DNA from: a virus
Length of the DNA stretch: 33,790 nucleotides
Virus record (IMG/VR): IMGVR_UViG_3300037504_000932
Span: 1-33,790 of that record
Direction: 5' to 3' (one strand)
This document shows positions 4,805 through 26,959 of this stretch, one piece after another. Numbering within the stretch: the first letter of the stretch is position 1; every line of letters starts with the position of its first letter. The translations under genes and the position numbers were made by a program. The notes beneath the pieces were generated by a model. It was given only the letters and a program-made list of their open reading frames with translations. It had not been told where the DNA came from and did not search any database.

Positions 4805-5143
4805 CTAAAGCGTTTTATACTGACCGCTGATTTTCACGGTGAAGGAAGGATCCGTTCCTCCCACGGTAAAGAGAAGAGCGTTCCTCCCGCCTAAACCGCC
4901 TAATAGAGTCTGGATATCCTTATCCACCCCGGAGATCTGTTTAAACGAGCCTATCACATACCATTCCCCGGTTTTCTCCGAGTAGGTCAGAACATCGACA
5001 TCCAGAGTCGGAGAGGTCCCGCTGGCGGCCGTACAGTTGAGGAAAAAATTGGCTTCCTGGAATTCACTGATTTCCTGGAAAGCGGTCTTGGTGTCACCGT
5101 TTGCGGTTATCGTTCCGTCAAACAGAATTAATTCGTTTATCAT
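4805..5143 (-). CDS. Small beta-rich virion protein, unknown
   Basis: 112 residues beginning MINELILFDGTITANGDT, with alternating beta strands (LDVDVLTYSEKTGEWYVIGSF, DPSFTVKISGQY). No catalytic motif, membrane segment or cysteine cluster is visible. The position between capsid and adaptor genes, a G-rich ribosome site (GGGGG) upstream, and a compact beta-sandwich-like composition make a capsid decoration or head-completion protein plausible. This is inferred from context only; I do not recognise the family. Confidence 0.5.
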   Translation of the reverse strand: MINELILFDGTITANGDTKTAFQEISEFQEANFFLNCTAASGTSPTLDVDVLTYSEKTGEWYVIGSFKQISGVDKDIQTLLGGLGGRNALLFTVGGTDPSFTVKISGQYKTL

Positions 5144-5170
5144 GGAAACCCCCTGCTTATCGAAATTTCC

Positions 5171-5581
5171 CTATGAAAAAGTTCTTGCAAACTTGAGCCG
5201 TCTTCCCCATTTCCAGAATTCGATCTGCATATCAGCGGCCGTCAGCTTGGCCTTCTGTATCCGTGCAGCCTCTTCCGCATCTACGCTCTTAATCTCTTTA
5301 TCAGCCGAATCCTCGATGTGCTTCTGGTGCTTCATGTACCTGAAAAACCGGATGACATCCTCGTCAAATGGCAAGGGATTATGGTTTTTATCTTCCAGGA
5401 CCATCTCTACGACAAAGTTCTTGCCTGAGATCGGATCGTACTCTGTGATTCCCGGTATATGCTTGGGAAAATCCTTGACGATAAACCACTTCCCATACTT
5501 ATCCATGAAAAAGGGATAGAGCTTGGGGTTTATAAGCCGCAGCTCTTTTACAAGTCTTTTTTCAGGAATATACACAGGCAT
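5171..5581 (-). CDS. Structural-operon protein of unknown function
   Basis: 136 residues starting MPVYIPEKRLVKELRLINP. I chose the ATG at 5581 because GGAGG lies 5 bases upstream; a TTG four codons earlier would overlap that site. The protein is mixed alpha/beta, with several aromatic-basic segments (FFMDKYGKWFIVKDFP) and a charged helical C-terminus (DAEEAARIQKAKLTAADMQIEFWKWG). It is separated from the capsid gene by a strong terminator-like hairpin, so it is probably made at a lower level than capsid protein. No family recognised. Confidence 0.55.
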   Translation of the reverse strand: MPVYIPEKRLVKELRLINPKLYPFFMDKYGKWFIVKDFPKHIPGITEYDPISGKNFVVEMVLEDKNHNPLPFDEDVIRFFRYMKHQKHIEDSADKEIKSVDAEEAARIQKAKLTAADMQIEFWKWGRRLKFARTFS

Positions 5582-6877: not shown

Positions 6878-6891
6878 TTTAACCTCCTAAG

Positions 6892-8025: not shown

Positions 8026-8036
8026 AATTTAACTCC

Positions 8037-8276
8037 TTATTTGGATTTTGATGTGACCTTGACTTTGGTCTTGGAGGATTCCTTTGTCTCAGCCGGCTTT
8101 TTCTTTTCCGGCCTTGGGGTTATCTTCCGCAGAACCTCCTCTTTCGGAAACTTCAAGGTCATACCATTCGCATATTTGAGATGCGGGATCTCGCCCTTCC
8201 GGGCCATGTCCTTGATCTCATCCTCATCCATATTCAGGATTTCGGATATCTCTTTAAGACTCACGATTTCAGCCAT
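8037..8276 (-). CDS. Small excisionase/MerR-like HTH protein in the head operon
   Basis: 79 residues. The first 50 (VSLKEISEILNMDEDEIKDMARKGEIPHLKYA.. then FPKEEVLRKI) match the DNA-binding 'helix-turn-helix_17' pattern of excisionases and MerR relatives: choose a state, x(8) acidic turn, GEIPxxK, F..ee...w. The C-terminal 30 residues are Lys/Ser-rich and disordered. Its place between portal and scaffold is odd for a transcription factor. It may be a late regulator, or the fold may have been reused in assembly. AAGGAGG precedes the ATG. Confidence 0.6.
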   Translation of the reverse strand: MAEIVSLKEISEILNMDEDEIKDMARKGEIPHLKYANGMTLKFPKEEVLRKITPRPEKKKPAETKESSKTKVKVTSKSK

Positions 8277-8277
8277 T

Positions 8278-10296: not shown

Positions 10297-10298
10297 CG

Positions 10299-10553
10299 TC
10301 AGAACCTATTAGCCGCCTCCTGGATCTTTCTTTCCGTTTCGGTCATTTTCTTTTTTTTGTTTTTCCGGAAATCCTTAAACATTTCCTCTTTATGCTTTAC
10401 TTCCTTGGGAAAGATCTCCTGGAAATGTTTGTACTCCTCCAGGTCCTTGGACATGTACCGGTCGAAAATCTGGCTTTTTTCCCGGTAATGGAGATAGAGC
10501 TGGAGGACATTGACCGCTATAAGCAGCATGACAACAATAAACCAGTAAATCAT
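10299..10553 (-). CDS. Small single-pass membrane protein
   Basis: 84 residues. Residues 2-20 form one hydrophobic segment (IYWFIVVMLLIAVNVLQLYL). The remainder is a charged helix with a Lys cluster (RKNKKKKMTETERKIQEA). It sits 2 bases from the portal gene and 8 from the terminase gene. No family recognised. A membrane protein between terminase and portal is unusual, and an assembly-site tether or a superinfection factor would both fit. Confidence 0.5.
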   Translation of the reverse strand: MIYWFIVVMLLIAVNVLQLYLHYREKSQIFDRYMSKDLEEYKHFQEIFPKEVKHKEEMFKDFRKNKKKKMTETERKIQEAANRF

Positions 10554-13174: not shown

Positions 13175-13339
13175 TTATTTTTTTGATGATTTATTTTTAT
13201 TTTTCTTTTCCTTTGGATAGTAATCAAGGTCCATTTTTTCAGTCAAGGAGGAGCTGTCAATGGGTACGAAATTTCTTGATTTTGAGAACTGAACTTGGCC
13301 CGGATAAAGCATGTATACGCAATCATTCTCATTTCTCAT
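13175..13339 (-). CDS. 54-aa protein coupled to the Ntn hydrolase gene
   Basis: A short frame from the ATG at 13339 to TAA at 13175. GAGGAGG lies 6 bases before the ATG, and the ATG overlaps the stop of the upstream hydrolase gene (ATGA), so the two are clearly coupled. The sequence starts MRNENDCVYMLYPGQ, contains an aromatic-rich middle and ends in a Lys/Asn/Ser tail (KEKKNKNKSSKK). It has no membrane segment. The function is unknown. A dedicated partner, substrate or regulator of the hydrolase is an inference from coupling alone. Confidence 0.6.
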   Translation of the reverse strand: MRNENDCVYMLYPGQVQFSKSRNFVPIDSSSLTEKMDLDYYPKEKKNKNKSSKK

Positions 13340-14043
13340 TGGCTTCCCTCCTCAAGTTTATAAAATGAGTTTTGAAGATTCTCTCTATGTTTCCTTACTT
13401 TACTATTAATAGACTTAATATCATCTTTTGTCAAGAAAGTGATTCCTCTATCAGGCTCTATTTTCATGATTTGCAATGGGCCCCCGACTTTACCATCTTG
13501 GCTAGCCGTTTCTTGGATACAATAGGCACCTAATTCTAAAATCGCTGTAATAGGCGCATCTTTTTTATATAATCGATTCAATAAATAAACTCCAAGTGGA
13601 ACTACCCCGATAGCCTGGAATCCCATTGTGCATTTTTGTGGGACAAATAAACTTTGAGAATTCAATAAATAGGAAAAAGGTGCCCCTGAAGAATGCCCGC
13701 AAACGATAAGAAGTAATGGAGGGTATTGTTTTATGTAATCATTCCCCAACTCTCTTGGCCCAGGATACCATTTACTGAAATTTTCAACGGCTGCTTTTGA
13801 TATTTTTTTTGTGGCATTTTTAATATCATCACTTTCGGTGATTTTATTTTCAATAATATCTACAAAATGAGCCCCCAATTCACCCGCGCCAGCAATGGCA
13901 ATTCCTATCTTATCACTCAAGCCAAATAACTTTTGAACATTGTCGTTAGAAGTTGTCAATCCCCTTGGATCACCGACAGTGGCCCGGCTGTCAGCAGCCA
14001 ACACAATACCTTCATCGCAGAGTAAACTTATTGCTAAAGTCAT
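13336..14043 (-). CDS. Stand-alone proteasome-like (Ntn-hydrolase) protein
   Basis: 235 residues. The start MTLAISLLCDEGIVLAADSR is the proteasome beta/HslV signature. Removing Met exposes a Thr nucleophile (Thr1), the second catalytic residue falls exactly at Asp17 (AADSRA), and a Lys sits in NVQKLFGL at about mature position 37, four later than the usual Lys33. A Gly-rich IAIAGAGELG segment follows, as in the family's substrate-pocket region. No propeptide, ATPase or second proteasome subunit is present in the window. AAAGGGGAA precedes the start. A peptidase is likely, but some Ntn relatives are amidases. It lies in the AT-rich cargo island with a methyltransferase-nuclease. Confidence 0.75.
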   Translation of the reverse strand: MTLAISLLCDEGIVLAADSRATVGDPRGLTTSNDNVQKLFGLSDKIGIAIAGAGELGAHFVDIIENKITESDDIKNATKKISKAAVENFSKWYPGPRELGNDYIKQYPPLLLIVCGHSSGAPFSYLLNSQSLFVPQKCTMGFQAIGVVPLGVYLLNRLYKKDAPITAILELGAYCIQETASQDGKVGGPLQIMKIEPDRGITFLTKDDIKSINSKVRKHRENLQNSFYKLEEGSQ

Positions 14044-14766: not shown

Positions 14767-16359
14767 TTATATCTTTAATTTTCCCTGCTTGCCTCCATCA
14801 TGCGTTGGTGCTTTTTTATCACGGTAGGGTGTTCTGGGATAGTCAATTTCTTTTCCTTTTAAAAGTTCTCTAATAGTAAGAATTTGAATTTTGGGAAACT
14901 TTCCCCATCCAGGTGAATCATAATAACCAGAGGAAATTGCTTCTTGCATCATTCCTTTTGTTGGGTTTTTAAGAGTTATAAATACTCCAATTTGGGCTTT
15001 TTCTCTTTCAACCGTTCCCCTTAAATCCCGAATGTATCCTGGATTAATATTGCCACTTTTTACTTGTATCAAAATCTTTTTTGTTTTTCCACTGTTATCA
15101 TCATGAAAATATATATTGCCATCAATTCCTTTATCTTTTCCCTTTTTTTTCTCCTTGTCAGCTGGTCTGGCTCCAACTAATCCAAGCGCCCACCATTCAA
15201 ACTGATATCGATCTTGCTTAGCAAGCGCATATGCTCCCTTTAGATCAACAGGCTCTCCAAAAACTTGATATTTCACTTTATAGCCAAAAGTATCTTGGAG
15301 TCTATGTTTCATTAAAGAAATTGCTAAATGAGTTACATCAATCCCAATCCATTTCCTCTTTATTTTCTCAGCAACAGTAATGGTGGTACCGCATCCACAA
15401 AAAGGATCTAATACAATATTACCTTCATTTGATGAGGCTCCAATTATTCTTTCAAGTAAGGATTCTGGCTTTTGTGTTGGATATCCTAAGCGCTCAGTAT
15501 GCCAGGATCTTAAAGCTTGGACATCAGCCCAGACATCCTGCAGGGGGAGACCTTTGGATTCATCAAGATATCTCTTTAATCTGGGGAAATTATTTCTTGT
15601 ATAGTAAATTTTACCCGACTTATCTAATTCTTCCATCTTACTTTTTGGACATCTCCAAACCCTTGTTATCCCTTTCCATTCATACTCATACCCTCCCCCC
15701 GAGAGACCTGAGGCACTTAAATTATCTGACATCCATCTGCGGCCATCATCATCCTCAAAACGATAATATTGGTCAATATAAGCTTGATCGTATTTCTGAT
15801 ACTTTTTATTCCAAGTATAATTATCTGATTTCACGTAAAATAATAAGTCATCATGAACATTTCCGCAGCGTGACGCATCACTGTGACTTGAAGTTCTTTT
15901 CCAAATAATATCATTCCGAAAATTCAATGAACCAAAAACAGCATCCAATAAAATTTTCAAATAATGACTTGCAACTGGGTCGCAATGAAGATAAATCGAG
16001 CCTGATTTTTTCAAAATTCGATGCAGCTCAATCAACCTTATTGCCATCATCACAAGATAAGCCATCATGTCGCTGGACCCTAAAAAACTTCTCATTGCGA
16101 TAATAACATCAGCAACTTTTTTTGGTCCTTGCTCGGCAATCTCAGTATAAGTCTTCTCTGCGGTTTCATCCCAATGCCACGTATCTTCGAAAACTCGGAT
16201 TTGAGCAGTCGAATCAGTTCCATTATGCTCCTTAAATAAAACATTATAATTTTGATCGCTTTTAAATGGCGGATCAAGATAAACCAAATCAACACTCTCA
16301 TCCTTGATATATCTTCTGAGGATGTCCAGGTTGTCGCCATAGTATAAGGTGTTTTTCAT
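14767..16359 (-). CDS. DNA methyltransferase fused to an Mrr-like nuclease domain
   Basis: 530 residues. Motif IV DPPF is at residues 29-32 and the SAM-binding motif DPFCGCGTT at about 316, so the order is that of beta-class amino-methyltransferases (N4-C or N6-A). Residues about 395-480 form a separate domain: FEWWALGLVGA, then GIDG at about 412, QVKSG at about 431 and AQIGVFITL. This D..QxK pattern is the Mrr/PD-(D/E)XK restriction fold. A single chain would therefore modify and cut, or modify and nick. No separate specificity subunit is visible. It is divergent from the 233-aa gene, with an operator-like palindrome between them. AT-rich, like the rest of the island. Confidence 0.8.
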   Translation of the reverse strand: MKNTLYYGDNLDILRRYIKDESVDLVYLDPPFKSDQNYNVLFKEHNGTDSTAQIRVFEDTWHWDETAEKTYTEIAEQGPKKVADVIIAMRSFLGSSDMMAYLVMMAIRLIELHRILKKSGSIYLHCDPVASHYLKILLDAVFGSLNFRNDIIWKRTSSHSDASRCGNVHDDLLFYVKSDNYTWNKKYQKYDQAYIDQYYRFEDDDGRRWMSDNLSASGLSGGGYEYEWKGITRVWRCPKSKMEELDKSGKIYYTRNNFPRLKRYLDESKGLPLQDVWADVQALRSWHTERLGYPTQKPESLLERIIGASSNEGNIVLDPFCGCGTTITVAEKIKRKWIGIDVTHLAISLMKHRLQDTFGYKVKYQVFGEPVDLKGAYALAKQDRYQFEWWALGLVGARPADKEKKKGKDKGIDGNIYFHDDNSGKTKKILIQVKSGNINPGYIRDLRGTVEREKAQIGVFITLKNPTKGMMQEAISSGYYDSPGWGKFPKIQILTIRELLKGKEIDYPRTPYRDKKAPTHDGGKQGKLKI

Positions 16360-17825: not shown

Positions 17826-17898
17826 TTCCCTGTAAATTCCTGTAAATAAAGCTATTTACCCCCTTGTGGTCTGCCCTTTTGGGTTTACGCTGAAAGTA
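17826..17898 (+). promoter_or_regulatory. Rightward promoter element, copy 2
   Basis: TTTCCCTGTA, then ACCCCC-TTGTGG, 16 bases and TACGCT inside GGGTTTACGCTGAAA (17881-17895). The 15-mer, the TTG and the 14-base distance between them are identical to the element at 12868-12900. It sits about 25 bases before the radC-like start. Shared control with the gene at 12919 is likely. Confidence 0.6.
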
Positions 17899-17919
17899 GA
17901 CACCACACAGGAGGTTACG

Positions 17920-18495
17920 ATGGATTTTACATTCAGGATTTTGGAGAAAACGCCTTGCAAGTATCCCTTCAAGGTGGAATCTCCGCAGGATGCCTACAAC
18001 CATTTTAAGGACCTGGCCAAGGCCAACCGGGAATGTTTGGCGGCTGTTTACCTTAACCCCAAAAACCAGGCCATTGACTCGGAGATTGTCTTCGCCGGCA
18101 CAACCGACAGCTCTGTCGTTTATCCGCGCGATATTCTCCGCTCCGCTATTCTCAATGATGCCGTTTCCGTCATCATCCTTCACAACCACCCATCCGGAGA
18201 CCCCGGACCGTCTGAATGTGACCGAAGCATAACGAAGCAGATTCTTTTGGCCCTTCATTCAGCCGGGCTGAAACTCTTGGATCACATCATCATCGGGGAC
18301 GGCCGTTATTTCAGCTTCACGGAAGAAGGCCTGATTGAGGACTATGAAACCATGTTCAAAGGCCTGGAGTCAACGGGCCTGGTGGCCGAGCCGGTAAAGG
18401 CCGGACGGTATCAGCCGGAACCGGAGCCGGAACCTGGCACCCAATTCAGCCTGTTTGACTGGTGCAGAGCCAGCCGGGAGAAATCCCGGCCGTAA
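17920..18495 (+). CDS. RadC-like JAB/MPN metalloprotein
   Basis: 191 residues from the ATG at 17920, which has GGAGG upstream. The JAMM zinc signature is present: Glu near residue 38 (NRECL), HNHPSG at 88-93 and Asp101 in PSECD. Flanking segments (VVYPRDILRSAILNDAVSVIILHNH; LLDHIIIGDG) are standard for RadC proteins. The usual N-terminal helix-hairpin-helix of chromosomal RadC is missing, giving the short form found on phages, plasmids and integrative elements next to antirestriction genes. Its biochemical role is unresolved in the family. It leads a plus-strand operon that includes an ArdC-like gene. Confidence 0.85.
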   Translation: MDFTFRILEKTPCKYPFKVESPQDAYNHFKDLAKANRECLAAVYLNPKNQAIDSEIVFAGTTDSSVVYPRDILRSAILNDAVSVIILHNHPSGDPGPSECDRSITKQILLALHSAGLKLLDHIIIGDGRYFSFTEEGLIEDYETMFKGLESTGLVAEPVKAGRYQPEPEPEPGTQFSLFDWCRASREKSRP

Positions 18496-18539: not shown

Positions 18540-18755
18540 ATGACGCTCACCAAAGAGCAGGAAGAGGCCATCATCCAGGTTGTCCGGGACGAGCTGGGAA
18601 GCTGGGACATCATGGTCAATGACCTGATATCCGAGATGCTCCACCGGGAATTCTGGGAAGAATCCATGGACGGTTTCTTTTATGTCGCGGCCCGGAGTCT
18701 GGCGAAGAAAACCATCATCAAAGAGCTGCCGGACTTTCTGGACCCGGAATTTTAA
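18540..18755 (+). CDS. Small acidic protein of the RadC-ArdC operon
   Basis: 71 residues starting MTLTKEQEEAIIQVVRDELG; AAAGGAGGTGATATCA leads into the ATG. The protein is helical and acidic, and ends LPDFLDPEF. It has no cysteines and no membrane segment. Its ribosome site and the downstream one (AAAGGAGGTGTT) are almost the same, suggesting equal translation within the operon. Unknown function. DNA mimicry, common in antirestriction operons, is conceivable given the acidity but not shown. Confidence 0.6.
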   Translation: MTLTKEQEEAIIQVVRDELGSWDIMVNDLISEMLHREFWEESMDGFFYVAARSLAKKTIIKELPDFLDPEF

Positions 18756-18765
18756 AGGAGGTGTT

Positions 18766-19560
18766 ATGCATCAATCTATGACAAAGCAGGAGCGGAAGCA
18801 ACAGCTCAAGGCGGACCTTGCGGACCTGGAACGGAAAATTATCACGGACCAGGCCGCACTTGAGGCTTTCGCTGAACGCTGGCGGTCAGGGTTTCGGTCC
18901 TATACCCTGACAAATTTTCTCTTGGCCTGGGGCCAGCGGCCCAATGTCTCCATCCTGGCCGGTTTCAAGCAGTGGAAAGACCGCGGCCGGTATGTCAAAA
19001 AAGGCGAGCGGGCCGTCTGGATATTTGCCCCGTATCTCAAAAAGATTGAGGCCGAGGACGAAGACGAGGAAGAACAAATCCTTAAAGGCTTTTTCCCGGT
19101 CCCTGTCTTCGATGTCAGCCAGACCGAAGGCGAAGACCTGGACATCGGAGCCAATGACGTTAAAGGCCGGAGCTGTCATTCCCTGGAGGACCTGGCCGGG
19201 AAATTCCCGGAGTATCCGCTGGTTATGACCGAGGGCCTGGAGGACGGGCACACGGACGGCCGCACCATTGAAATCAGCCGCAGGAAAAACAAGGCCCAGC
19301 AGATAACAGCCTACCTTCACGAGCTGGCCCATATCCTGCTGCAGCATACCAAAGGCGCAGACCGGGAAAACCTGGCCCATGATTTGGGCGAGGTCGAGGC
19401 GGAGAGTGTCGCTTATCTCACCGGCTTATGTCTCGGGATTAACAGCCGGGATTCCCTCCGCTACCTGGGAGGCTTCAACGGCAAGGGCGACCACTTAAAG
19501 AGCCAGGCTTCCCTCATTCTCAAGACAGCCGAGAGAATCCTTAAACGGATTGAAAACTAA
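18766..19560 (+). CDS. ArdC-like antirestriction protein (ssDNA-binding plus metallopeptidase)
   Basis: 264 residues from the ATG at 18766, behind AAAGGAGG. Residues about 40-120 match the ArdC N-terminal domain (RSYTLTNFLLAWGQRPNVSILAGFKQW, then GRYVKKGERAVWIFAPYL). The C-terminal part is a zincin: AYLHELAHILLQH with HExxH at 185-189 and a probable third ligand in EVEAES near 211. In plasmids, ArdC protects incoming single-stranded DNA and inhibits restriction. A phage could use it early after infection. An acidic insert (AEDEDEEE) near residue 97 is local. Confidence 0.8.
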   Translation: MHQSMTKQERKQQLKADLADLERKIITDQAALEAFAERWRSGFRSYTLTNFLLAWGQRPNVSILAGFKQWKDRGRYVKKGERAVWIFAPYLKKIEAEDEDEEEQILKGFFPVPVFDVSQTEGEDLDIGANDVKGRSCHSLEDLAGKFPEYPLVMTEGLEDGHTDGRTIEISRRKNKAQQITAYLHELAHILLQHTKGADRENLAHDLGEVEAESVAYLTGLCLGINSRDSLRYLGGFNGKGDHLKSQASLILKTAERILKRIEN

Positions 19561-19611: not shown

Positions 19612-19905
19612 ATGTCAATGTATCTATGGGCAGCAGCGCAAAAGGCTGCATATGAAAAGTATCAAAGAATCGACGAGGCCAGCGACCGGCACCGGCTGGA
19701 GCTGGGCGAGGTCAACGGCCTGGACTTCCGGGCGGCAGAGATTGACCCGGAAACAGCCAAAGGTCCGGAGGGTGAGCGGTTTGTTGCCATCATCCGGGAC
19801 CGGTCCAATCCCCCGGCTTCGGCCTGGGCCTGGTTTCACACCTGGGAAGCGGCCAGGGATTTTATTAGGCTCGCGCACCGGGCCGAGCAAAGGGGGGTTA
19901 TATGA
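19612..19905 (+). CDS. Protein of unknown function
   Basis: 97 residues from the ATG at 19612, behind GGGAGGACAAC. It opens MSMYLWAAAQKAAYEKYQR and has an internal ERFVAIIRDRSNPPASAWAW beta/turn segment and a helical end (ARDFIRLAHRAEQRG). No known motif recognised. It overlaps the next start by 4 bases, so it is a tight member of the RadC-ArdC operon and shares that module's G/C-rich, GGCCTGG-rich base use. Confidence 0.55.
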   Translation: MSMYLWAAAQKAAYEKYQRIDEASDRHRLELGEVNGLDFRAAEIDPETAKGPEGERFVAIIRDRSNPPASAWAWFHTWEAARDFIRLAHRAEQRGVI

Positions 19906-20102
19906 AATTCTACCGGAAGGATCCCCGGATCCTGAAAGCAAAATTTAAATCGCGTTGCCCTAAGTGCCGGCGCGAGATCTCACCGGGCGAGCAGATCATC
20001 TACTGGCCCATAACCCGGACCGCTTTCTGCTGGAGCTGCGGAGAACTGGATTATCTGGAATTCCTTTCAGCTGCAGCGGATGAGGCAGGGATCCCTTTTT
20101 AA
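19902..20102 (+). CDS. Small zinc-ribbon protein with SSB-like C-terminal tip
   Basis: 66 residues. Two CxxC pairs (CPKC at about 19-22 and CWSC at about 43-46) can bind one zinc ion, and an ISPGEQIIYWP stretch between them is typical of phage zinc-ribbon proteins that resemble PARP-type fingers. The protein ends DEAGIPF, which closely resembles the terminal DDDIPF of Escherichia coli SSB. It could thus enter the same interactions as SSB. It is the last gene of its operon and is followed by a strong terminator. Binding to DNA is inferred only. Confidence 0.65.
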   Translation: MKFYRKDPRILKAKFKSRCPKCRREISPGEQIIYWPITRTAFCWSCGELDYLEFLSAAADEAGIPF

Positions 20103-20115
20103 CCTCCTGTGTTTT

Positions 20116-20149
20116 GGGCGGCTGGCTTCGGCTGGCCGCCCTTTTTTTT
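20116..20149 (+). terminator. Intrinsic terminator with UUCG loop
   Basis: GGGCGGCTGGC and GCTGGCCGCCC pair over 11 positions (two G-T pairs) around a TTCG tetraloop, followed by eight T. It ends the RadC-ArdC operon 14 bases after the last stop. This is a textbook Rho-independent terminator. Confidence 0.95.
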
Positions 20150-20164
20150 AAAACAAAAAAGTTG

Positions 20165-20170
20165 TATAAT
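20165..20170 (+). promoter_or_regulatory. -10 element for the 82-aa gene
   Basis: A perfect TATAAT lies 25 bases before the ATG at 20195. The -35 region falls in the T/A-rich end of the preceding terminator and has no clear TTGACA, so the promoter may be weak or need an A/T-rich UP-like stretch. Confidence 0.45.
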
Positions 20171-20194
20171 CGCACACCAAGGTAGGAAAAGACA

Positions 20195-20443
20195 ATGAAA
20201 AAAGAAATTAACAACTCAACTTGCAGATACTGCGGGGCAACAGGAGAGGTATTTCTTTCAGAGCTAAAAGATGACGAACCCAAACCAAAGAAATACTTTT
20301 GCCTTAAACTTCAATGCTCAGAGAATTGCAGAGAAAGTCAACCAGATGAAATGAATATTCTCTATGTATCTGAAAAATTGCAGGATCTAAAAACTTGGGC
20401 AGTTAAGAATTTTATATCCTGGGATTGCATCACGATAATCTGA
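20195..20443 (+). CDS. Small Cys-rich protein, unknown
   Basis: 82 residues beginning MKKEINNSTCRYCGATGEVF, with CxxC at residues 10-13 and a later cysteine group (FCLKLQCSENC) that could complete a zinc site. AGGAAA lies before the ATG and a TATAAT 25 bases upstream. Base use is AT-richer than the operon before it. It stands alone between a terminator and attP. A moron, expressed from its own promoter in the lysogen, is a reasonable inference; no family recognised. Confidence 0.5.
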   Translation: MKKEINNSTCRYCGATGEVFLSELKDDEPKPKKYFCLKLQCSENCRESQPDEMNILYVSEKLQDLKTWAVKNFISWDCITII

Positions 20444-20523
20444 GTTTTGCGAACAACTCCCCTTGGATGATTTATGCACAACACTACACTTCCATAACTT
20501 CCGCTTTTTTGTCTATAAAATTG

Positions 20524-20580
20524 TAACAGATTTGTAACGGGATGTGTCATATAATGGCATATAATGTCATTTGATGTCAT
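20524..20580. repeat. Probable integrase arm sites, left arm of attP
   Basis: TAACAGATTTGTAAC (20524-20538) is followed by a run of short direct repeats, GTCATATAATG, GCATATAATG, GTCATTTGATG and GTCATTAGG (20545-20584). An inverted copy, GTTACAAATCTGT, lies at 20714-20726 and a direct near-copy, TAACATATTTGT, at 20691-20702, on the other side of the core. Flanking repeats in this arrangement are what tyrosine integrases and excisionase/IHF-type factors bind. Confidence 0.55.
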
Positions 20581-20609
20581 TAGGATTTTCGTTTTCCGCC
20601 AGGGGTAAA

Positions 20610-20654
20610 TGGTACGCCCGGAGAGATTCGAACTCCCGACCTTCTGATTCGTAG
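20610..20654 (-). other. attP: attP core: 3' half of tRNA-Arg(ACG)
   Basis: On the minus strand the 45 bases run from an anticodon loop, CTACGAA (anticodon ACG), through the variable loop, the GGGAG-TTCGAAT-CTCTC T-arm and CGGGCGT-A to CCA. The 5' half of a tRNA is absent: the sequence before the anticodon loop cannot pair with its 3' stem. So this is not a tRNA gene but the crossover identity segment that restores the host gene after integration. Phage genes lie on both sides and the integrase gene ends 60 bases away. Confidence 0.85.
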
Positions 20655-20714
20655 CCGACAGGACTACCCCTGTTCATTTGGCATCTCGTGTAACATATTT
20701 GTCTAGTGTTTTTG

Positions 20715-21788
20715 TTACAAATCTGTGTACAACGCCCCGATTTTCTTTACTGCTGCTCTTAATTCCGCCTCATCGTGATGCGTGTATTTCTCTGTTACCA
20801 GGACCGAACTGTGGCCGAGAACCGTTCGCGCCACCGAGATGGGGACCGTCTGACTTAGGTAGGTGGAAACGGTGTGCCGGATCTGATGGAAAGTGAAATC
20901 CTGAACTTTGGATTTCTTCCGGATCTCCCGGACCACCCGCTTAATCGAGTCCGTTCCCTTCAGCGTGAAGACGTGCTCTCCCTTTACGGGCTGCCGGTCG
21001 ATCACCGCCTTGGCGTGTTCGTTAAGGACAACAACCTTGTTTTTCCGCTGGGTTCTGGAGCTGGAGCGGCGGCGATACTTGGTGGAGGTTATCGGAATAA
21101 CGGCCAGGTTGCCCTGGATATGCTCGCGTTTGAGATTCAGGATCTCGCCCAAGCGCATACCGGTGTTAAAAGCCAGGACAAGAAGATCATGGACAACAGC
21201 CTGAGCCGGACCGGACGGATCTGCCTGAATCTCGGCGGCAGCGTCCAGGACCGCCTTCAGCTCTTCCCGCGACAAGGCCCTCCGTGTACGGTCTTCCACA
21301 AAAAACTCATAACCATCCACCGGATTGTGGCGGATATGGCCTTCTTTTTTGGCCAGGGTGAAGAAATGCCGCAGCAGGGTCATGTACCGGTTGACCGTGG
21401 TCTCCGTGAGGCTGCGCTTGGTTTTCTTGCCGACTTTCCGGGCAAGGAGATATTGCTCCAGCCGCTCAATGTCGGTTTGGCGGATACTGTCGAGCGGTGG
21501 ATCCTCAAGAAAATCCTCAACGACCTTGAGCATTCCCATGTCGTTATCCAGAGTCTTTTTGTGCGCTTTTAGTTTCTTGTAGCGGTCCGCAAAATCGGAA
21601 AAGAGCACCCGTTTGACGGACGGATTCTCCAGCCCGAAATGCTCCGCTGTGATCTCATCCTCGACCTGCTGCAGCCGGGCGGACAGGAAATGCTCCTGGC
21701 CTTTGTGGATCTGGAGGGATCTGTAATAGTCCTTTCCCTCTATGGTTTTTTTGAACCAGTAGATGTGGTTCCTGAGGTAGACTCCCAT
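20715..21788 (-). CDS. int: Tyrosine recombinase integrase
   Basis: 357 residues. The C-terminal catalytic residues are all present: Arg212 (NTGMRLGEILNLK), His301-x-x-Arg304 (FHQIRHT), His326 (LGHSS) and Tyr335 (EKYTH), with a likely Lys237 in the beta-hairpin. Residues 60-165 form the core-binding SAM-like domain and the first 55 the arm-binding part. It carries out insertion at the tRNA-Arg 3' end using the attP beside its own 3' end. It is the third gene of a minus-strand operon with the repressor and a membrane protein, so it should be made in the lysogen-establishing programme. Confidence 0.95.
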   Translation of the reverse strand: MGVYLRNHIYWFKKTIEGKDYYRSLQIHKGQEHFLSARLQQVEDEITAEHFGLENPSVKRVLFSDFADRYKKLKAHKKTLDNDMGMLKVVEDFLEDPPLDSIRQTDIERLEQYLLARKVGKKTKRSLTETTVNRYMTLLRHFFTLAKKEGHIRHNPVDGYEFFVEDRTRRALSREELKAVLDAAAEIQADPSGPAQAVVHDLLVLAFNTGMRLGEILNLKREHIQGNLAVIPITSTKYRRRSSSRTQRKNKVVVLNEHAKAVIDRQPVKGEHVFTLKGTDSIKRVVREIRKKSKVQDFTFHQIRHTVSTYLSQTVPISVARTVLGHSSVLVTEKYTHHDEAELRAAVKKIGALYTDL

Positions 21789-21964
21789 GACAATTTATCC
21801 CACTCGGCTCCTGTATATTGTTCCAATGTGCCGGTTAACCTGTTTATTCTTATATCAACCTTTGCAATAGGATAATAGTACCTATTCGCCCACAAAACAA
21901 TGATCAGCAGCACCAGCAGGATCACCGCATAAACTTTCCAAAATTTATCTTTATTGTCCGTCAT
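21740..21964 (-). CDS. Small membrane protein between repressor and integrase
   Basis: 74 residues with one hydrophobic segment (VYAVILLVLLIIVLWANRYYY, residues about 12-32), then an outer or inner part with IRINRLTGTLEQYTGAEW. It overlaps the repressor end by 14 bases and the integrase start by 49, so all three are one transcript. The ATG at 21964 was preferred to a GTG one codon earlier. A prophage-expressed membrane protein could be a superinfection-exclusion factor; this is an inference from its place in the lysogeny operon. Confidence 0.6.
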   Translation of the reverse strand: MTDNKDKFWKVYAVILLVLLIIVLWANRYYYPIAKVDIRINRLTGTLEQYTGAEWDKLSWESTSGTTSTGSKKP

Positions 21965-22196
21965 CACTTATAAATCCCTTTTCTTCCGCATAGCGGAAAA
22001 ATTCTTCAACTGAGATCCCTAATGCCCGGCAAATCCTTATCATCGTGCTGACTCTTGGGTCTGCAATTTGCCCAGTCTCTATCCTTGAAATTACACTTTT
22101 ATCAATAGTGTATCCGGAATTTCGAAAAACATCACCTTGGCTCATTCCAATTTTTTTCCTTATGGCGCGCAAAGCGTCTCCAATATTGACATCCAA
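21951..22196 (-). CDS. XRE-family repressor (CI-like)
   Basis: 81 residues that are almost all one lambda-repressor-type HTH: MDVNIGDALRAIRKKIGMSQGDVFRNSG..IDKSVISRIETGQIADPRVSTMIRICRALGISVEEFF. There is no C-terminal cleavage or dimerisation domain, so it is not a RecA-cleaved repressor of the CI type. AAGGAG lies before the ATG. It is read from the leftward promoter 22333-22305 and likely binds the palindromic spacers in both divergent promoters. Confidence 0.8.
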   Translation of the reverse strand: MDVNIGDALRAIRKKIGMSQGDVFRNSGYTIDKSVISRIETGQIADPRVSTMIRICRALGISVEEFFRYAEEKGFISDDGQ

Positions 22197-22304
22197 AACT
22201 CTTCTCCTTAAACAATATAACCTCCCCTTCGCCGCCTGGTTATCTTCATTCGTTATTTTTGTGCATCCCTCCTTGGGTTGAAAACCCCAGCTCCCGTTGA
22301 CTTA

Positions 22305-22333
22305 AATATAGTCTACCAATTTACTAATGTCAA
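22305..22333 (-). promoter_or_regulatory. Leftward promoter of the lysogeny operon
   Basis: On the minus strand TTGACA (22333-22328), a 17-base spacer (22327-22311) and TATATT (22310-22305). The spacer reads TTAGTAAATTGGTAGAC, which resembles the ATTAGCAATTGCTAAT operator of the opposite promoter. It reads into repressor, membrane protein and integrase. Confidence 0.75.
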
Positions 22334-22361
22334 ATTTGCATATGATATTTTTTTAAATAGG

Positions 22362-22390
22362 TTGACATATTAGCAATTGCTAATTATTAA
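22362..22390 (+). promoter_or_regulatory. Rightward early promoter with operator in its spacer
   Basis: TTGACA (22362-22367), 17 bases and TATTAA (22385-22390). The spacer is almost entirely the perfect 16-bp palindrome ATTAGCAATTGCTAAT (22369-22384), so a bound repressor dimer would sit between -35 and -10 and block polymerase. It drives the Cro-like gene and the early operon. Confidence 0.85.
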
Positions 22391-22423
22391 TATCATATAA
22401 AGTCAATTTCTCATGGAGTCATA

Positions 22424-22612
22424 ATGAATCAAATTAAAAAGATTCTTGAAGAAAAGGGCAAGTCTGTCGGCTGGCTTTCCATCAACAGCGGAGTCAATCA
22501 CAGCCAGCTTTGGAAAATAATCAAGGAAATCACGCCAAACCCAGGCATTAAAACAGCAATCAAGATCGCTCGAACACTTCATGTAAAAGTTGAGGAAATA
22601 TGGAAACCTTAA
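22424..22612 (+). CDS. Cro-like XRE-family HTH protein
   Basis: 62 residues, one HTH domain (IKKILEEKGKSVGWLSINSGVNHSQLWKIIKE.. then IKTAIKIARTLHVKVEEIW). The ATG has GGAG 8 bases upstream and is 34 bases from the -10. Facing the repressor across the divergent operators, it fills the Cro position of the immunity region. Confidence 0.8.
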   Translation: MNQIKKILEEKGKSVGWLSINSGVNHSQLWKIIKEITPNPGIKTAIKIARTLHVKVEEIWKP

Positions 22613-22800
22613 AACCTGAACAAGTCTGCGATTTATTAGGCGGCATCTCTTACCGCACCCTCCTCCGCCGGATCGACAAAGACGGTCTGCCGAAGATCCA
22701 AGCAACCCGAAAGGGAAAGCTCTTATTCAGCAAAGCGGCTGTCGAACTTTGGTTGAGGAAACAGCAGGAGAAAAGAATCAAGGAATTAAGGAGACGATAA
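22600..22800 (+). CDS. Excisionase-type HTH protein
   Basis: 66 residues with the helix_turn_helix_17/MerR-like layout: LKPEQVCDLLGGISYRTLLRRIDKDGLPKIQATRKGKLLFSKAAVELWL, then a basic tail (RKQQEKRIKELRRR). It overlaps the Cro-like gene by 13 bases, with GAGG before the ATG. Excisionase, or a small activator of the early operon, are both possible. The position in the early operon opposite int favours excisionase. Confidence 0.65.
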   Translation: METLKPEQVCDLLGGISYRTLLRRIDKDGLPKIQATRKGKLLFSKAAVELWLRKQQEKRIKELRRR

Positions 22801-22801
22801 A

Positions 22802-23083
22802 TTGCTTGAAGATTATAAAAATCATCTCTTAAGGCTCAAGCAACGGTCTGAAAAGCTGACGGAATCATACCCTTCCGGTTTCCAACGGGAACATGAAAAC
22901 GTCAGGGCCCAGGCGTTAAGCCTTGCCTATGACCTGTTCCTTCATTACCTGGAACTGGAAAAAAAGAAACAAAAAAAGGAGAGCCGAAAAAATGGCAGAA
23001 AAAAACAACAACGCCCCTCCTACCCTCTCCGCCGAAGTGGTAAAAGAGGACCAGGGCGACCAAGAAAATCATCAAATCGTTAA
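22802..23083 (+). CDS. Small helical protein with C-terminal AT-hook
   Basis: 93 residues from a TTG at 22802, preceded by AAGGAG. The first 60 residues are helical (LEDYKNHLLRLKQRSEKLTES, ENVRAQALSLAYDLFLHYLELEKK), then a very basic part ends with SGKRGPGRPRKSSNR. GPGRPRK is an AT-hook, the minor-groove AT-DNA binding motif. The last 92 bases are shared, in another frame, with the start of the RecT-like gene. Binding to AT-rich phage DNA is an inference from the motif. Confidence 0.6.
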   Translation: MLEDYKNHLLRLKQRSEKLTESYPSGFQREHENVRAQALSLAYDLFLHYLELEKKKQKKESRKNGRKKQQRPSYPLRRSGKRGPGRPRKSSNR

Positions 23084-24068
23084 GCAGGAGCAGCACTTAT
23101 CCCAGCGGCCGGCGGACGCATACCTGGCCAACGCCCAGGACCTCTTGACTATGGCCGAAGGCCTGGCCAAATCCAAGATGTTTCCCAATGTCAAGGACGA
23201 GTACGGAGCCATGGCTATGATCGAGTACGGCCGGGAACTGGGACTGCCGCCGGTGGTCGCCCTCCAGACCATGAGCGTTGTCAACGGCAAGCTCTGTGTC
23301 GAAGCGAAGATCTATCAGAGTCTACTGGAAAAAGCCGGCATCAGGATCTCCATTCTCAAGAAAGACAAGGAAGGCTGCCGGCTCAAGTTTGAAAAGCCGG
23401 GCAAGGCCCATGAAGAAGAATTCACCATGAAGGACGCGGAGCGGATCGGCCTGGCCAAGAAACTCAATTACCAATACTACCCGGAAGAGATGTGCTACTG
23501 GCGGTGTATTTCCAAGGGCGGGAGGGTGATAGACCCCGGTGCCGTCCTGGGTCTTTACACCAAAGAGGAAATGCAGGACACACCCGATGTCGTCCAGGAG
23601 TCTTACTCCGAAAAGCAGAAGGAAGAGAAAAAGAAGGAAGAGTCCAAAAAGGATACTAAATCATCTTCCAAGAAAACCACCAAGAAGGGATCCACCAAGA
23701 AAAAAACCGAAACCAAAAAAGAGGAACCGAAAGAGGAACCACAGGACGATGAGAAAACCGAGCTGGTCAATGAGATCAAGCAATATTTCGAAGACGGATT
23801 CGATGACGGAGAGGCCATGTATAAGCAATTCAAAAGGTTCCTCTCCGACTTCCAGAACGAAAAAAACCGAGACCAGGGAAAAGACCTTTGTTTTGTGCTG
23901 GGAAACCAGTACGGCCACCTCTCCATGACGGAAGGAAAGCTGGACGATCTCAAGAAAATGTGGGGAACCAAAAAGGCCCAGGAATACACTTTGTTCAATT
24001 TCCGCAAATGGCTCAGGGAGCAGAACGAAACCCAGGAAGGCGAGAGTGAAGACGACACCCCCTTTTAG
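22992..24068 (+). CDS. RecT-like single-strand annealing protein with SSB-like tip
   Basis: 358 residues from the ATG at 22992, with AGGAG 10 bases upstream; an in-frame ATG 23 codons earlier lies inside the previous gene. Residues about 40-190 match phage RecT-like recombination proteins: LAKSKMFPNVKDEYGAMA, YGRELGLPPVVALQTM, VNGKLCVEAKIYQSLLEKAG, EFTMKDAERIGL, then MCYWRCISKGGRVIDPG. A Lys/Thr/Ser-rich linker (residues about 210-245) follows, then a helical domain, and the chain ends SEDDTPF, like the SSB docking tip. It pairs with the nuclease encoded next, as RecT pairs with RecE. Confidence 0.7.
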   Translation: MAEKNNNAPPTLSAEVVKEDQGDQENHQIVKQEQHLSQRPADAYLANAQDLLTMAEGLAKSKMFPNVKDEYGAMAMIEYGRELGLPPVVALQTMSVVNGKLCVEAKIYQSLLEKAGIRISILKKDKEGCRLKFEKPGKAHEEEFTMKDAERIGLAKKLNYQYYPEEMCYWRCISKGGRVIDPGAVLGLYTKEEMQDTPDVVQESYSEKQKEEKKKEESKKDTKSSSKKTTKKGSTKKKTETKKEEPKEEPQDDEKTELVNEIKQYFEDGFDDGEAMYKQFKRFLSDFQNEKNRDQGKDLCFVLGNQYGHLSMTEGKLDDLKKMWGTKKAQEYTLFNFRKWLREQNETQEGESEDDTPF

Positions 24069-24077
24069 GAGCCGGGC

Positions 24078-24962
24078 ATGAATCAAAAAATCGAAATAAA
24101 AAACGGAAGATACATCATCCCGGGTCATGGCTCTCTCCCGCGCGTCACCTCCATCTGCGGACTGCTGGATAAGTCCCGTCCGCTTGTCGGCTGGGCCAGC
24201 CGGGTTGTCGCTGAATACGCGCTTAAAGAAATCATTGAGAAACTTAAATGGGGAGAGCTGACGATTGATCAAATCGAAAAGATGGACGTAGATCAGTTCG
24301 TCAAAGACGCAAAGAGCAGCCCCAGGCTAATCAAGGAAAGGGAAGCGGAGAAAGGAAAGCGGGTCCATAAGTTTGCCGAGCTTATGTTCAAGGCGCTGAT
24401 TATGGGCCGGCTGGTGGACCTGGAGGTGGATGAAGACATTGAGAAACCATGCCAGGCCCTTATCCAGTTCGTAGAGGACCACCATATTGAACCGATCGCA
24501 GTAGAAAAAACCGTATGGTCCAAATCATTCGGCGGATACGCCGGCCGGCTGGACGTTGTTTCCTGGAAAGACGACAAGCTCTTTGTGATCGATCTCAAGA
24601 CAGCCAAAGGCCTTTACGATGACCACCCGCTTCAGATAGCCGCCTATTATCACGCTTTCAAACAGATGCATGATAACGAGCCTATTGACGGAGCTGCCGT
24701 TCTCCGGCTGGATAAAGTCTCAGGTTTTCCCTTTTGGCATGAGTACACGCCAAAACAAATGGACGACTATGTGGATGAATTCAGCTTTTGGTGCGCGATC
24801 TGGCATATCCGGAATGATCGGAGAATCCGGGAGAAGGAGAAAAAGAAAAAGGCCGCGGCCAAAAAGAAAACCACAAAGAAGAAGACAACGAAGAAAACCA
24901 CCAAGAAAAAAACCCAACAGGCGGAACTGCCTGATGCTTGGGAAGGGGAGGCTCCCTACTAA
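24078..24962 (+). CDS. PD-(D/E)XK exonuclease with SSB-like tip
   Basis: 294 residues, AGGAG before the ATG. The nuclease core has Glu143 (VEKTVW), Asp159 in AGRLDVV, Asp172-Leu-Lys174 in VIDLKT and Gln186 with Tyr190 in LQIAAYY. This is the RecB/Cas4-type active site. After residue 250 a Lys/Thr repeat tail (KKKTTKKKTTKK) precedes the ending AWEGEAPY. The tail is histone H1-like and unusual for such nucleases. Beside a RecT-like annealing gene, it should degrade DNA ends to expose single strands for annealing. Confidence 0.75.
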   Translation: MNQKIEIKNGRYIIPGHGSLPRVTSICGLLDKSRPLVGWASRVVAEYALKEIIEKLKWGELTIDQIEKMDVDQFVKDAKSSPRLIKEREAEKGKRVHKFAELMFKALIMGRLVDLEVDEDIEKPCQALIQFVEDHHIEPIAVEKTVWSKSFGGYAGRLDVVSWKDDKLFVIDLKTAKGLYDDHPLQIAAYYHAFKQMHDNEPIDGAAVLRLDKVSGFPFWHEYTPKQMDDYVDEFSFWCAIWHIRNDRRIREKEKKKKAAAKKKTTKKKTTKKTTKKKTQQAELPDAWEGEAPY

Positions 24963-25075
24963 TGAGAAAGATCAATTGGCCGGTCGCCTTCCGGTATCTG
25001 GGATATTTGATTTTATTCGCCGTCATCATCCTGATCTCACTCTTGGCAATTAAGACGGGAGGAATCCTTGGGTGA
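24962..25075 (+). CDS. 37-aa single-pass membrane protein
   Basis: The ATG overlaps the stop of the nuclease gene (TAATG) and the frame ends at TGA 25073-25075, inside the start of the SSB gene. The protein starts MRKINWPVAFRYLGY and has one hydrophobic segment, YLILFAVIILISLLAI, at about residues 15-30. GGGGAGG lies 14 bases before the ATG. Tight overlap on both sides supports translation. A membrane microprotein inside a recombination cluster is unusual; function unknown. Confidence 0.55.
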   Translation: MRKINWPVAFRYLGYLILFAVIILISLLAIKTGGILG

Positions 25076-25478
25076 TTTCAACAGCCTGAATGTCGTCATA
25101 CTTGTCGGTAATCTCGGTGAGGACCCGAAACTATACAAAGGGAAAAAAAGCAAACAAAAATTCACCAGGTTTTCTCTCTGCACCAATCAAAAAGCCATCA
25201 ACTCTAAAAAAATAATCGAACAGTGGCACAAGGTTGTTGCCTGGGGATCGTTGGCGGAGGCAGCAGTTACATACCTCCGCAAAGGTTCAAGCATCATGAT
25301 TAAGGGGTATCTCAAAACCAGGACATACAACAAAGACGGTGAAAAACGATACATCACCGAGGTCCATGCGAATGAATGGATCTTCAACAGCAAGGGAAAA
25401 TCCGGAGACGTGACGGACAATACGGAACCTCCGGAGGAAGAGGAAGGATACAGTGCGGAAGATGAGGACCCGTATTAG
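25068..25478 (+). CDS. ssb: Single-stranded DNA-binding protein
   Basis: 136 residues from a TTG at 25068 behind GGGAGGA. The OB-fold is clear: LNVVILVGNLGEDPKLY, KFTRFSLCTNQ, EQWHKVVAWGSLAEAAVTYLRKGSSIMIKGYLKTRTYNKDG, then YITEVHANEW. An acidic tail (DNTEPPEEEEGYSAEDEDPY in effect, residues 117-136) ends DEDPY where cellular SSBs end DDDIPF. It coats single strands made during replication and recombination and displays the tip for partner docking. Other genes here end in the same way. Confidence 0.9.
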   Translation: MGDFNSLNVVILVGNLGEDPKLYKGKKSKQKFTRFSLCTNQKAINSKKIIEQWHKVVAWGSLAEAAVTYLRKGSSIMIKGYLKTRTYNKDGEKRYITEVHANEWIFNSKGKSGDVTDNTEPPEEEEGYSAEDEDPY

Positions 25479-25503
25479 TGTTCGCCCGTTCTGGGTCCCC
25501 AAA

Positions 25504-25549
25504 GGCGCAGGGCTTACGGCCAAGGTCCCTGACAAGGATCCCCTGCGCC
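25504..25549. repeat. Inverted repeat, 9-bp arms
   Basis: GGCGCAGGG (25504-25512) and CCCTGCGCC (25541-25549) are perfect inverted copies with 28 bases between. It lies in the 168-base non-coding gap between ssb and the initiator gene, where another large dyad follows. It may form an RNA or single-strand DNA structure. Confidence 0.6.
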
Positions 25550-25570
25550 AATCATCTCCTTTCATATATC

Positions 25571-25628
25571 GGGGCGGCGGCTGTCCCCCATCAAACCTCC
25601 TTCACGACCTGGCATCGGTCGCCGCCCC
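25571..25628. repeat. Inverted repeat, 11-bp G/C-rich stem
   Basis: GGGGCGGCGGC (25571-25581) pairs with GTCGCCGCCCC (25618-25628), with one G-T pair, around a 36-base loop. The stem ends 18 bases before the initiator start, which has only a weak ribosome site, so folding could control initiator translation. It could equally serve as a single-strand initiation structure. Confidence 0.6.
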
Positions 25629-25646
25629 CCTACAAAAAGATGCGAC

Positions 25647-26471
25647 ATGAAACGCGGATACATAAAACTATGGCGGAAGATTAAAGACCATGATTTCTGG
25701 AAAGAAAACAGATCTAAAACAAAATTTGAAGCATGGGTGGATCTTCTGATGATGGCAGCCGGCCTGGATAAAAAAGTGTTATACCGCGGAGAAATGATCA
25801 AGGTGAAAAGAGGCCAAATCCTCACATCAAAACTCTCCCTCTCTAAACAATGGGGGTGGGACAGGAAAACGGTCACAAGATTTATCGATTTATTAAAAAA
25901 TGAGGACCAAATAAGGGTCATCAAAAAGGACAACAGATATTCCATCTTAAGTATATGTAATTACGAGAAATACAATCCCCTCAGTGATATTGAAAGGACA
26001 ACAGAAGGGACAACAGAAGGGACAACTGATGCCCCAACTGATGCCCCAACAGAAGGGACAACGTCTAAGAAAGATAAAAGAAGGAATAAAGAAGGAATAA
26101 ATAATACATATGCAGACTGTCTGCAAAAATGGAACCAATTCGCTGAAAAACACAACCTCCCTCAAATCATCAAAATCACACCCAGGACAAGAAGAGGCCG
26201 CGCTCTCAATGCCCGGCTGAAAGAGGGATTAAACTTTGATGAACTCTTAGAACGTATCGAAGAGCAGCCGTTCCTGCTGGGTGAGAATAAAAACGGCTGG
26301 GCGGTTGACTTTGATTTTATCATCACCGCATCCAAGTATCAGAAAATCATAGAAGGCGGATATAAACGTGTTCATCGAGATCCGGCCGTTGACGCAAAAG
26401 AAAGGGTGGAAAGAGTAGAAAAAATCCGCAAGAGAATTCGGGAGGAAAAATTCGAGGAGGAACCCTATTGA
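25647..26471 (+). CDS. DnaD/O-type replication initiator with internal origin repeats
   Basis: 274 residues. The N-terminal 115 form the winged-helix of phage replisome organisers: GYIKLWRKIKDHDFW, VKRGQILTSKLSLSKQWGWDRKTVTRFIDLLKNEDQIRV, YSILSICNYEKYNP. A Thr/Glu/Gly linker made of four-residue units (TTEG, TTDAP-type) is encoded by 12-bp DNA repeats. The C-terminal 120 residues look like a DnaD/helicase-contact domain (FDELLERIEEQPFLLGENKNGWAVDFDFIITASKYQKIIEG). It ends KFEEEPY, an SSB-like tip. The ribosome site is weak. Confidence 0.75.
   Translation: MKRGYIKLWRKIKDHDFWKENRSKTKFEAWVDLLMMAAGLDKKVLYRGEMIKVKRGQILTSKLSLSKQWGWDRKTVTRFIDLLKNEDQIRVIKKDNRYSILSICNYEKYNPLSDIERTTEGTTEGTTDAPTDAPTEGTTSKKDKRRNKEGINNTYADCLQKWNQFAEKHNLPQIIKITPRTRRGRALNARLKEGLNFDELLERIEEQPFLLGENKNGWAVDFDFIITASKYQKIIEGGYKRVHRDPAVDAKERVERVEKIRKRIREEKFEEEPY
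25993..26115. other. ori: Probable replication origin: six 12-bp iterons and AT-rich stretch
   Basis: Six head-to-tail 12-mers cover 25993-26064: AAAGGACAACAG, AAGGGACAACAG, AAGGGACAACTG, ATGCCCCAACTG, ATGCCCCAACAG and AAGGGACAACGT. An A-rich, G/C-poor stretch (26065-26115, with two AAGGAATAAA) follows. Iterons plus an AT-rich unwinding region inside the initiator gene is the lambda O arrangement. Confidence 0.7.
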
Positions 26472-26959
26472 GTATCCGGGCGGAATTTTGGGATGACTGC
26501 ATTACGCGGCTCATGAAATTTTTCACGGAGATTGATTCATCCAGGCAGGACGGATACTACGCGGAACTGGAAAAGCGTGATGTGGGTGAAAAGGTCTTGG
26601 AGAAAGCCATTGATTTCCTGATTGAAAACAGAACCCATAAATACTTCCCTTCTTTCGCTGAGATCCTGGATGCGGTCGATGAGGTCCGCCGGCGATATAA
26701 ATTCACCGAGTACGACTTTGAACCCTGCGGCCTTTGTGAGGATACCGGTTTTCGGATTGAGAAAAGGGTGTATCCGGAACTCGGGCCTGAGACCAGGGAG
26801 ACCGCCGTTCCCTGTTCATGCCAGCAGGGTCAGTTTCGAAAGCGGCAGCTTAAACGCCAGGCCAAGGATGGAAAATTAGCACCGAAAAAATATTACAAAT
26901 ATACGGTGGTCCGGGACCAGGAAGAGATTAAATTCCCGGAGGATGAGGAACCGTATTAG
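26468..26959 (+). CDS. Probable helicase loader with zinc knuckle and SSB-like tip
   Basis: 163 residues from a TTG at 26468 overlapping the initiator stop, with GGAGGA upstream. The N-terminal helical part (FWDDCITRLMKFFTE, YYAELEKRDVGEKVLEKAIDFLIENRTHKYFPSFAEILDAVDEV) resembles phage helicase-loader/G39P-type proteins, where a 'fPsfaEi' turn is usual. Four cysteines follow (CGLC near 88 and CSC near 116), a GxG-flanked zinc knuckle typical of these loaders. It ends FPEDEEPY. No helicase gene is visible, so it should bring in the host DnaB. Function inferred from neighbour and motif. Confidence 0.55.
   Translation: MSIRAEFWDDCITRLMKFFTEIDSSRQDGYYAELEKRDVGEKVLEKAIDFLIENRTHKYFPSFAEILDAVDEVRRRYKFTEYDFEPCGLCEDTGFRIEKRVYPELGPETRETAVPCSCQQGQFRKRQLKRQAKDGKLAPKKYYKYTVVRDQEEIKFPEDEEPY

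Follow-up and report, generated by a model that had tools for sequence, protein, structure and literature searches.

In phage T7, the single-stranded DNA-binding protein (SSB) gp2.5 and the primase-helicase gp4 share an acidic C-terminal tail, that of gp2.5 being comparable to that of gp4, and the tail binds a common partner. In gp4, the acidic tails attach to the polymerase at patches of basic residues (PMC12593628). In bacteria, it is SSB that ends in a docking tip (D-D-D-I/L-P-F), which is read by its partners; the B. subtilis tip brings in at least 12 proteins, including PriA, DnaE, RecO, RecJ, RecQ and RecG (PMC3000357). Phage annealases make use of the same element: their function depends on SSB tips (PMC5928155, PMC11846896), and the last seven residues of the tip are recognised by a phage annealase (PMC10711431). 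Such cooperation between an annealase and an SSB tip within a recombination module is seen with Sak/SSB of 80alpha, with Sak4/SSB of HK620 and with RecT and host SSB. In phage lambda, the annealase Redbeta is contacted by both the exonuclease and SSB. The lambda exonuclease binds Redbeta via a folded surface and not via an SSB-type tail. We deal here with a virus record of 33,790 bases (IMG/VR record IMGVR_UViG_3300037504_000932, the whole of which is called the window below), in which five neighbouring genes of a recombination-replication cassette each encode a protein ending in an SSB-type tip.

SSB-type docking tips are a known concept that covers the present finding, although the latter departs from each of these systems. 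As in bacterial SSB, there are acids, a proline and a terminal aromatic residue, at the exact C-terminus of proteins of DNA replication and recombination; whereas in bacteria SSB carries the tip and its partners read it, here it is found on the replication and recombination proteins of the phage themselves, and its last residue is mostly Tyr. As in T7, an SSB and a second replication protein share an acidic tail, and an arrangement in which T7 has two such proteins extends here to five. However, the T7 receptor is the T7 DNA polymerase, while no DNA polymerase, and no replicative helicase or primase either, was recognised among the window open reading frames (ORFs) scanned against Pfam and PHROGs, so that no phage polymerase is at hand as tail receptor; in addition, the tails sit on five different folds and have the penultimate Pro of SSB. 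In the annealase-SSB pairs, the annealase is a reader of the tip; the annealase of the cassette, like about half of the Firmicutes phage RecTs sampled, has in addition a tip of its own. Finally, the exonuclease of the cassette has the very type of tail that its lambda counterpart does without.

The five tip proteins, namely a RecT-like annealase, a PD-(D/E)XK exonuclease, an SSB, a DnaD-like initiator and a protein of 163 amino acids (aa), are encoded in one co-directional run of 4 kb (22992-26959), in which the only other gene is a 37-aa ORF without a tip (Table 1). An earlier interpretation, made without database searches (the sequence-only reading), had described this run with its single exception and had listed, together with a 66-aa zinc-ribbon protein encoded elsewhere, six tip sequences; inspection of the genes and direct reading of the translations bear out both descriptions. 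All six C-termini have at least two acids near the end, a penultimate Pro and a terminal aromatic residue, the RecT-like and zinc-ribbon proteins ending in PF and the exonuclease, SSB, initiator and 163-aa protein in PY. The OB-fold domain of SSB (PF00436) was matched by 25068-25478 only, the other tip proteins having no PF00436 match. A tip is ordinary for an SSB; the surprising ones are those of the exonuclease, the initiator, the 163-aa protein and, to a lesser degree, RecT.

These tips go beyond what chance and composition would give. The tip rule that we used (a P-aromatic end with at least two acids in the preceding six residues) picked out, among all six-frame ORFs of at least 40 aa in the window, the six genes named above only; a laxer rule allowing -PL added one stray ORF. 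At the DNA level, GANGANNNNCCNTWYTAR, which is the degenerate coding pattern for [DE][DE]xP[FY]-stop, occurs three times in the window, each time at the end of a cassette gene, against 0.03 expected from dinucleotide shuffles (0/100 reach three); the initiator, with its TGA stop, and the exonuclease, with EGE, lie outside this pattern. A dereplicated set of about 5,000 ORFs from phages and prophages satisfied the tip rule at 0.05% of internal positions versus 0.3% of ordinary C-termini, and the enrichment of C-terminal tips was 1759-fold for RecT and 527-fold for SSB. With SSB and RecT excluded, the background rate is 0.37%; for about 45 genes, this gives a probability of about 6e-4 for at least three tips and of 2.5e-5 for at least four, adjacency not being counted. 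The tail codons differ in most pairs (9-15 out of 21 nucleotides, nt, are alike), which points to convergence at the protein level, except for the SSB and the 163-aa protein (19/21). The sixth tip, that of the zinc-ribbon protein, is the weakest (DE, then A-G-I-P-F): chance alone would give a match as good as this in about one out of six such genomes. Being compatible with chance at the background rate, and belonging to another transcription unit, it was rejected as a member of the set, in which the sequence-only reading had included it.

The terminal residue is also shared to an unusual degree. The sampled tips comprise 129 ending in Phe and 5 in Tyr (5/134, near-identical copies included); in the cassette, four tips out of five, that of SSB among them, end in Tyr (p=9e-6). 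A scan with the SSB gave four distant nearest SSBs, three ending in -PF and one in -PW. Copying of tail DNA could account for the SSB/163-aa pair only (the 19 shared nucleotides mentioned above). A coordinated Tyr in unrelated folds looks as if it had been selected by one shared receptor, and argues that the cassette set may be co-adapted to a single one. Elsewhere, the fetched locus of a second phage (L236) has exactly two tip proteins, a RecT (6585-7472) and a 245-aa acidic protein (9747-10484), both of which end in GEEDPY. The RecTs of loci L192 and L193, sisters of the L236 RecT, end in DPYA, one residue beyond. The Tyr-ended matches to the strict pattern that were inspected in bacterial genomes were mostly not at gene ends.

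How common such tips are was assessed on a family-level sample: loci with DnaD-like initiators (63 from genomes and 80 viral), viral loci with PF03837-type RecT (80), and annotated phages. After dereplication, the tip is present in 33/40 SSBs and 52/100 PF03837-type RecTs, but in only 4/161 initiators, 0/69 exonucleases and 0/53 DnaC loaders, versus 15/4840 (0.3%) of other ORFs. Thus, conservation of the tip across homologues, the check named beforehand in the sequence-only reading, holds for SSB and for this type of RecT and fails for the exonuclease, initiator and DnaC loader families, in which most homologues lack it. Given these low rates, the tips on the exonuclease, initiator and 163-aa protein are, as far as the sequences can tell, a lineage acquisition and not a family trait.

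In the same sample, the cassette is the densest case. Sampled loci outside the window have at most three tips, and mostly none or one; RecT plus SSB tip pairs do occur among them. The claim that no other phage has so many neighbouring tips therefore stands in everything sampled. The strict pattern was found in 216/398 Bacillota genomes, with at most three matches per genome; among the matches listed and the top-hit genomes that were re-run, there was no case of three within 10 kb, and one pair only, a chromosomal DnaB ending in DDEPPF near SSB. This replicative DnaB helicase of a Bacillota chromosome (L166:125-1570, minus strand; end PPDDEPPF) is encoded a few kb from ssb. With a looser pattern, 50 whole phage records had at most two matches each, versus three in the window. 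A phage with two tips is L087, where they end an SSB-like 195-aa protein (EEFPF, 4882-5469) and a T7 gp4-like primase-helicase (DEIPF, 6495-8345).

The survey also brought out what is apparently a wider habit of phage RecTs, so far unremarked: about half of those sampled from Firmicutes phages have an SSB-type tip of their own. No mention of a tip on RecT itself was found in the literature on phage annealases that was searched, which is not a proof of novelty. An aromatic terminal residue is present in 65% of the sampled RecTs versus 10% of other proteins. A set of 21 tip-bearing RecTs, dereplicated, has acids at positions -5 and -4 in 90-95% and nearly fixed residues at positions -1 and -2, while the linker before them is variable, a profile that partly follows from the definition of the tip. 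A tree of 47 RecTs, built with the last 30 residues removed, requires at least six changes of tip state even on well-supported branches. The tip was not associated with the presence of a phage SSB gene (12/20 RecTs with SSB, 53/83 without). The window RecT belongs to a subfamily other than the PF03837-type, and its few known relatives have no tip: a search for RecTs of its type in 113 genomes related to Pelotomaculum and 299 Bacillota genomes gave three believable relatives, 0/3 tipped. Its tip would therefore have been acquired independently.

Table 1. Genes of the cassette, their C-terminal tips and the zinc-ribbon gene (positions in the window)
Feature	Position	Strand	Basis or remark
Zinc-ribbon protein, 66 aa, end DEAGIPF	19902..20102	+	separate transcription unit
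RecT-like single-stranded DNA annealing protein, 358 aa	22992..24068	+	phrog_4171 E=3.7e-18; phrog_561 E=9.5e-17
Tip SEDDTPF, RecT-like protein	24045..24065	+	translation; DNA pattern match
PD-(D/E)XK exonuclease, 294 aa, Lys/Thr-rich C-terminal linker	24078..24962	+	PDDEXK_1 E=2.6e-6; phrog_298 exonuclease E=3.9e-33
Tip WEGEAPY, exonuclease	24939..24959	+	translation
37-aa membrane-type ORF without tip	24962..25075	+	start overlaps exonuclease stop
SSB	25068..25478	+	PF00436 E=1.1e-23
Tip EDEDPY, SSB	25458..25475	+	translation; DNA pattern match
DnaD-like replication initiator / helicase loader, 274 aa	25647..26471	+	phrog_2514 E=2.5e-27; C-terminal half phrog_19658 replication initiation E=1.3e-16
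Tip FEEEPY, initiator	26451..26468	+	the next gene, which overlaps, has its Shine-Dalgarno-like GAGGAGG in this DNA
163-aa protein with CxxC...CxC motif	26468..26959	+	no Pfam hit, marginal PHROG hit only; placed where G39P-type helicase loaders sit
Tip EDEEPY, 163-aa protein	26939..26956	+	19/21 nt identical to SSB tail plus stop

The RecT-like protein is laid out as an annealase core, a Lys-rich linker, a predicted helical C-terminal region and the tip. In its AlphaFold model, which is of low confidence (predicted local distance difference test, pLDDT, 49), an alpha/beta core extends to about residue 180 and is followed by a disordered linker, helices at 252-349 and a disordered tip; a PDB fold search with this weak model gave no significant match, lambda Redbeta ranking second (E 0.21). 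Similar KKTTKK repeats are found in the Lys/Thr-rich low-complexity linkers of both RecT (23611-23745) and exonuclease (24834-24920). As for the 163-aa protein, its gene lies downstream of that of the initiator, as in many loci, and this position and a weak motif agree with the label 'helicase loader' given to it by the sequence-only reading; on the other side, it has no Pfam match, the hhalign comparison with loaders found downstream of DnaD-like initiators is weak (probability 1.9%, E 0.026) and its AlphaFold model has a pLDDT of 41. It is thus a candidate helicase loader by gene order and weak motif only. Within the initiator gene, at 25992..26062 on the plus strand, there are about six iteron-like direct repeats of 12 nt (GAAGGGACAACA), which make this stretch a possible replication origin.

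The phage is temperate, with a P22-like portal, a large terminase, a major head protein, a tyrosine integrase and a repressor-like helix-turn-helix protein. Outside the cassette, the minus strand encodes a 235-aa protein (13336-14043) with a match (E=1.5e-8) to the family of proteasome subunits (Ntn-hydrolases), which is unusual for a phage, and a fusion of an N6/N4 DNA methylase with an Mrr-type restriction nuclease-like domain (14767-16359). Adjoining genes on the plus strand encode a RadC/JAB-domain protein (17866-18495, E=1.8e-38) and an antirestriction-like protein made of ArdC-N plus an M78 peptidase (18682-19560).

What is established is that the tips exist, that they stand exactly at the C-terminus, that they do not occur at random and that their terminal residue is matched. 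On this basis, we consider it slightly better than an even bet (about 0.55) that all five cassette tips function as SSB-type docking tips, gained independently on unrelated folds and sharing a receptor pocket with the tip of the phage SSB. We infer binding, the identity of the receptor and an exchange of partners, which could be as follows. Since no polymerase, helicase or primase was recognised in the scanned ORFs, the likeliest receptors would be those proteins of the host replication fork that are partners of SSB, proteins like PriA, DnaE, RecO, RecJ and RecQ. The SSB-binding surface of the phage annealase itself may be an additional receptor, and its C-terminal region 252-349, predicted to be helical with low confidence, is the second receptor candidate. 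The tipped initiator and the 163-aa protein encoded downstream would recruit, or be handed, the host restart and helicase-loading machinery, while the tipped exonuclease and annealase would be brought to SSB-coated DNA and swap with SSB on shared partners.

Several points weigh against such docking. The consensus SSB-type tip ends in Phe and not in Tyr. Homologues of the exonuclease, initiator and loader are almost never tipped, and these families therefore do not generally need a tip. Moreover, single-protein scans with the RecT, the exonuclease, the 163-aa protein, the initiator and the terminase found no close relative of the phage (one distant RecT at most), which is why the survey was made at the level of families. 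The idea of a shared tip, as put forward in the sequence-only reading, is thus sustained by the non-chance occurrence, the unrelated folds and the matched terminal residue (Y in four out of five), but not by conservation in the exonuclease, initiator and loader families.

A more ambitious proposal, which we make only tentatively, is that of a tip-plugged recombination-replication complex: one and the same tip, with its coordinated change to Tyr, on SSB, annealase, exonuclease, initiator and loader would plug into one assembling receptor, possibly the phage annealase, and tips of this type would be transferable modules, put by phages on their DNA proteins. A related and rather doubtful possibility is that the receptor is purely internal to the phage. 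In that case, the exonuclease, SSB, initiator and 163-aa protein would dock on the helical C-terminal region of the annealase and the tip of RecT would reach a neighbouring subunit, so that one complex would form around a RecT oligomer. There are precedents: annealing by the Sak of 80alpha requires both the C-terminal domain of Sak and the SSB tail (PMC11846896), Sak4 requires the SSB tail (PMC5928155), and Redbeta binds both lambda exonuclease and SSB, according to work cited in PMC9772228. The window RecT has an extra region that is predicted, with low confidence, to be helical at 252-349, and a receptor within the phage would explain why SSB and its partners shifted to Tyr together. But the RecT model is of too low confidence to show a pocket and has no significant fold match, and many tipped RecTs belong to loci that lack an SSB gene, so that their tips cannot be owed to SSB docking on RecT.

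The tails may also be considered without any shared receptor. As proposed for SSB and T7 gp2.5, an acidic tail could fold onto the DNA-binding surface of its own protein as a DNA mimic and be freed on DNA; DNA binding is expected of all five proteins, and the linkers that precede the tips of RecT and the exonuclease are Lys-rich and strongly basic. We find such autoregulation improbable, because charge alone would not call for a penultimate Pro and a terminal aromatic residue at the very C-terminus, or for unrelated folds to end in the same residue. Still less probable is that the tips are decoys that, by titration, withdraw the SSB partners of the host from its forks or from repair. Five tipped proteins in one cassette would indeed increase the concentration of tips, and the receptors would be the same as those of the host docking that we favour; yet the proteins that bear the tips do the replication work of the phage and are not small dedicated ones, and the host replisome is required by the phage too, no polymerase, helicase or primase of its own having been recognised among the scanned ORFs. 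Last, it is hardly credible that the acidic ends merely result from codon bias or from Shine-Dalgarno sequences for an overlapping next gene. Shine-Dalgarno-like motifs for the next start (GAGGAGG, GGGGAGG) do lie within the tail DNA of the exonuclease and initiator, but of the genes that are coupled to the next one and have such a motif within their final 24 nt, 3/453 had a tip, the same as the rest, so that coupling as the cause of the acids was ruled out. Moreover, the RecT, SSB and 163-aa tails are under no Shine-Dalgarno requirement, and composition is excluded by the shuffles and the internal-position controls.

The biology of the SSB tip is usually framed as that of one ligand, SSB, and many receptors; five ligand-bearing phage proteins, together with the tipped RecTs, reverse this picture. 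In recombineering, the host range of RecT is attributed to recognition of the SSB tip, and the tip of RecT itself would be an overlooked second determinant. The prediction is that a host docking tag, worn by the recombination and replication proteins of a phage, would give them entry to host forks.

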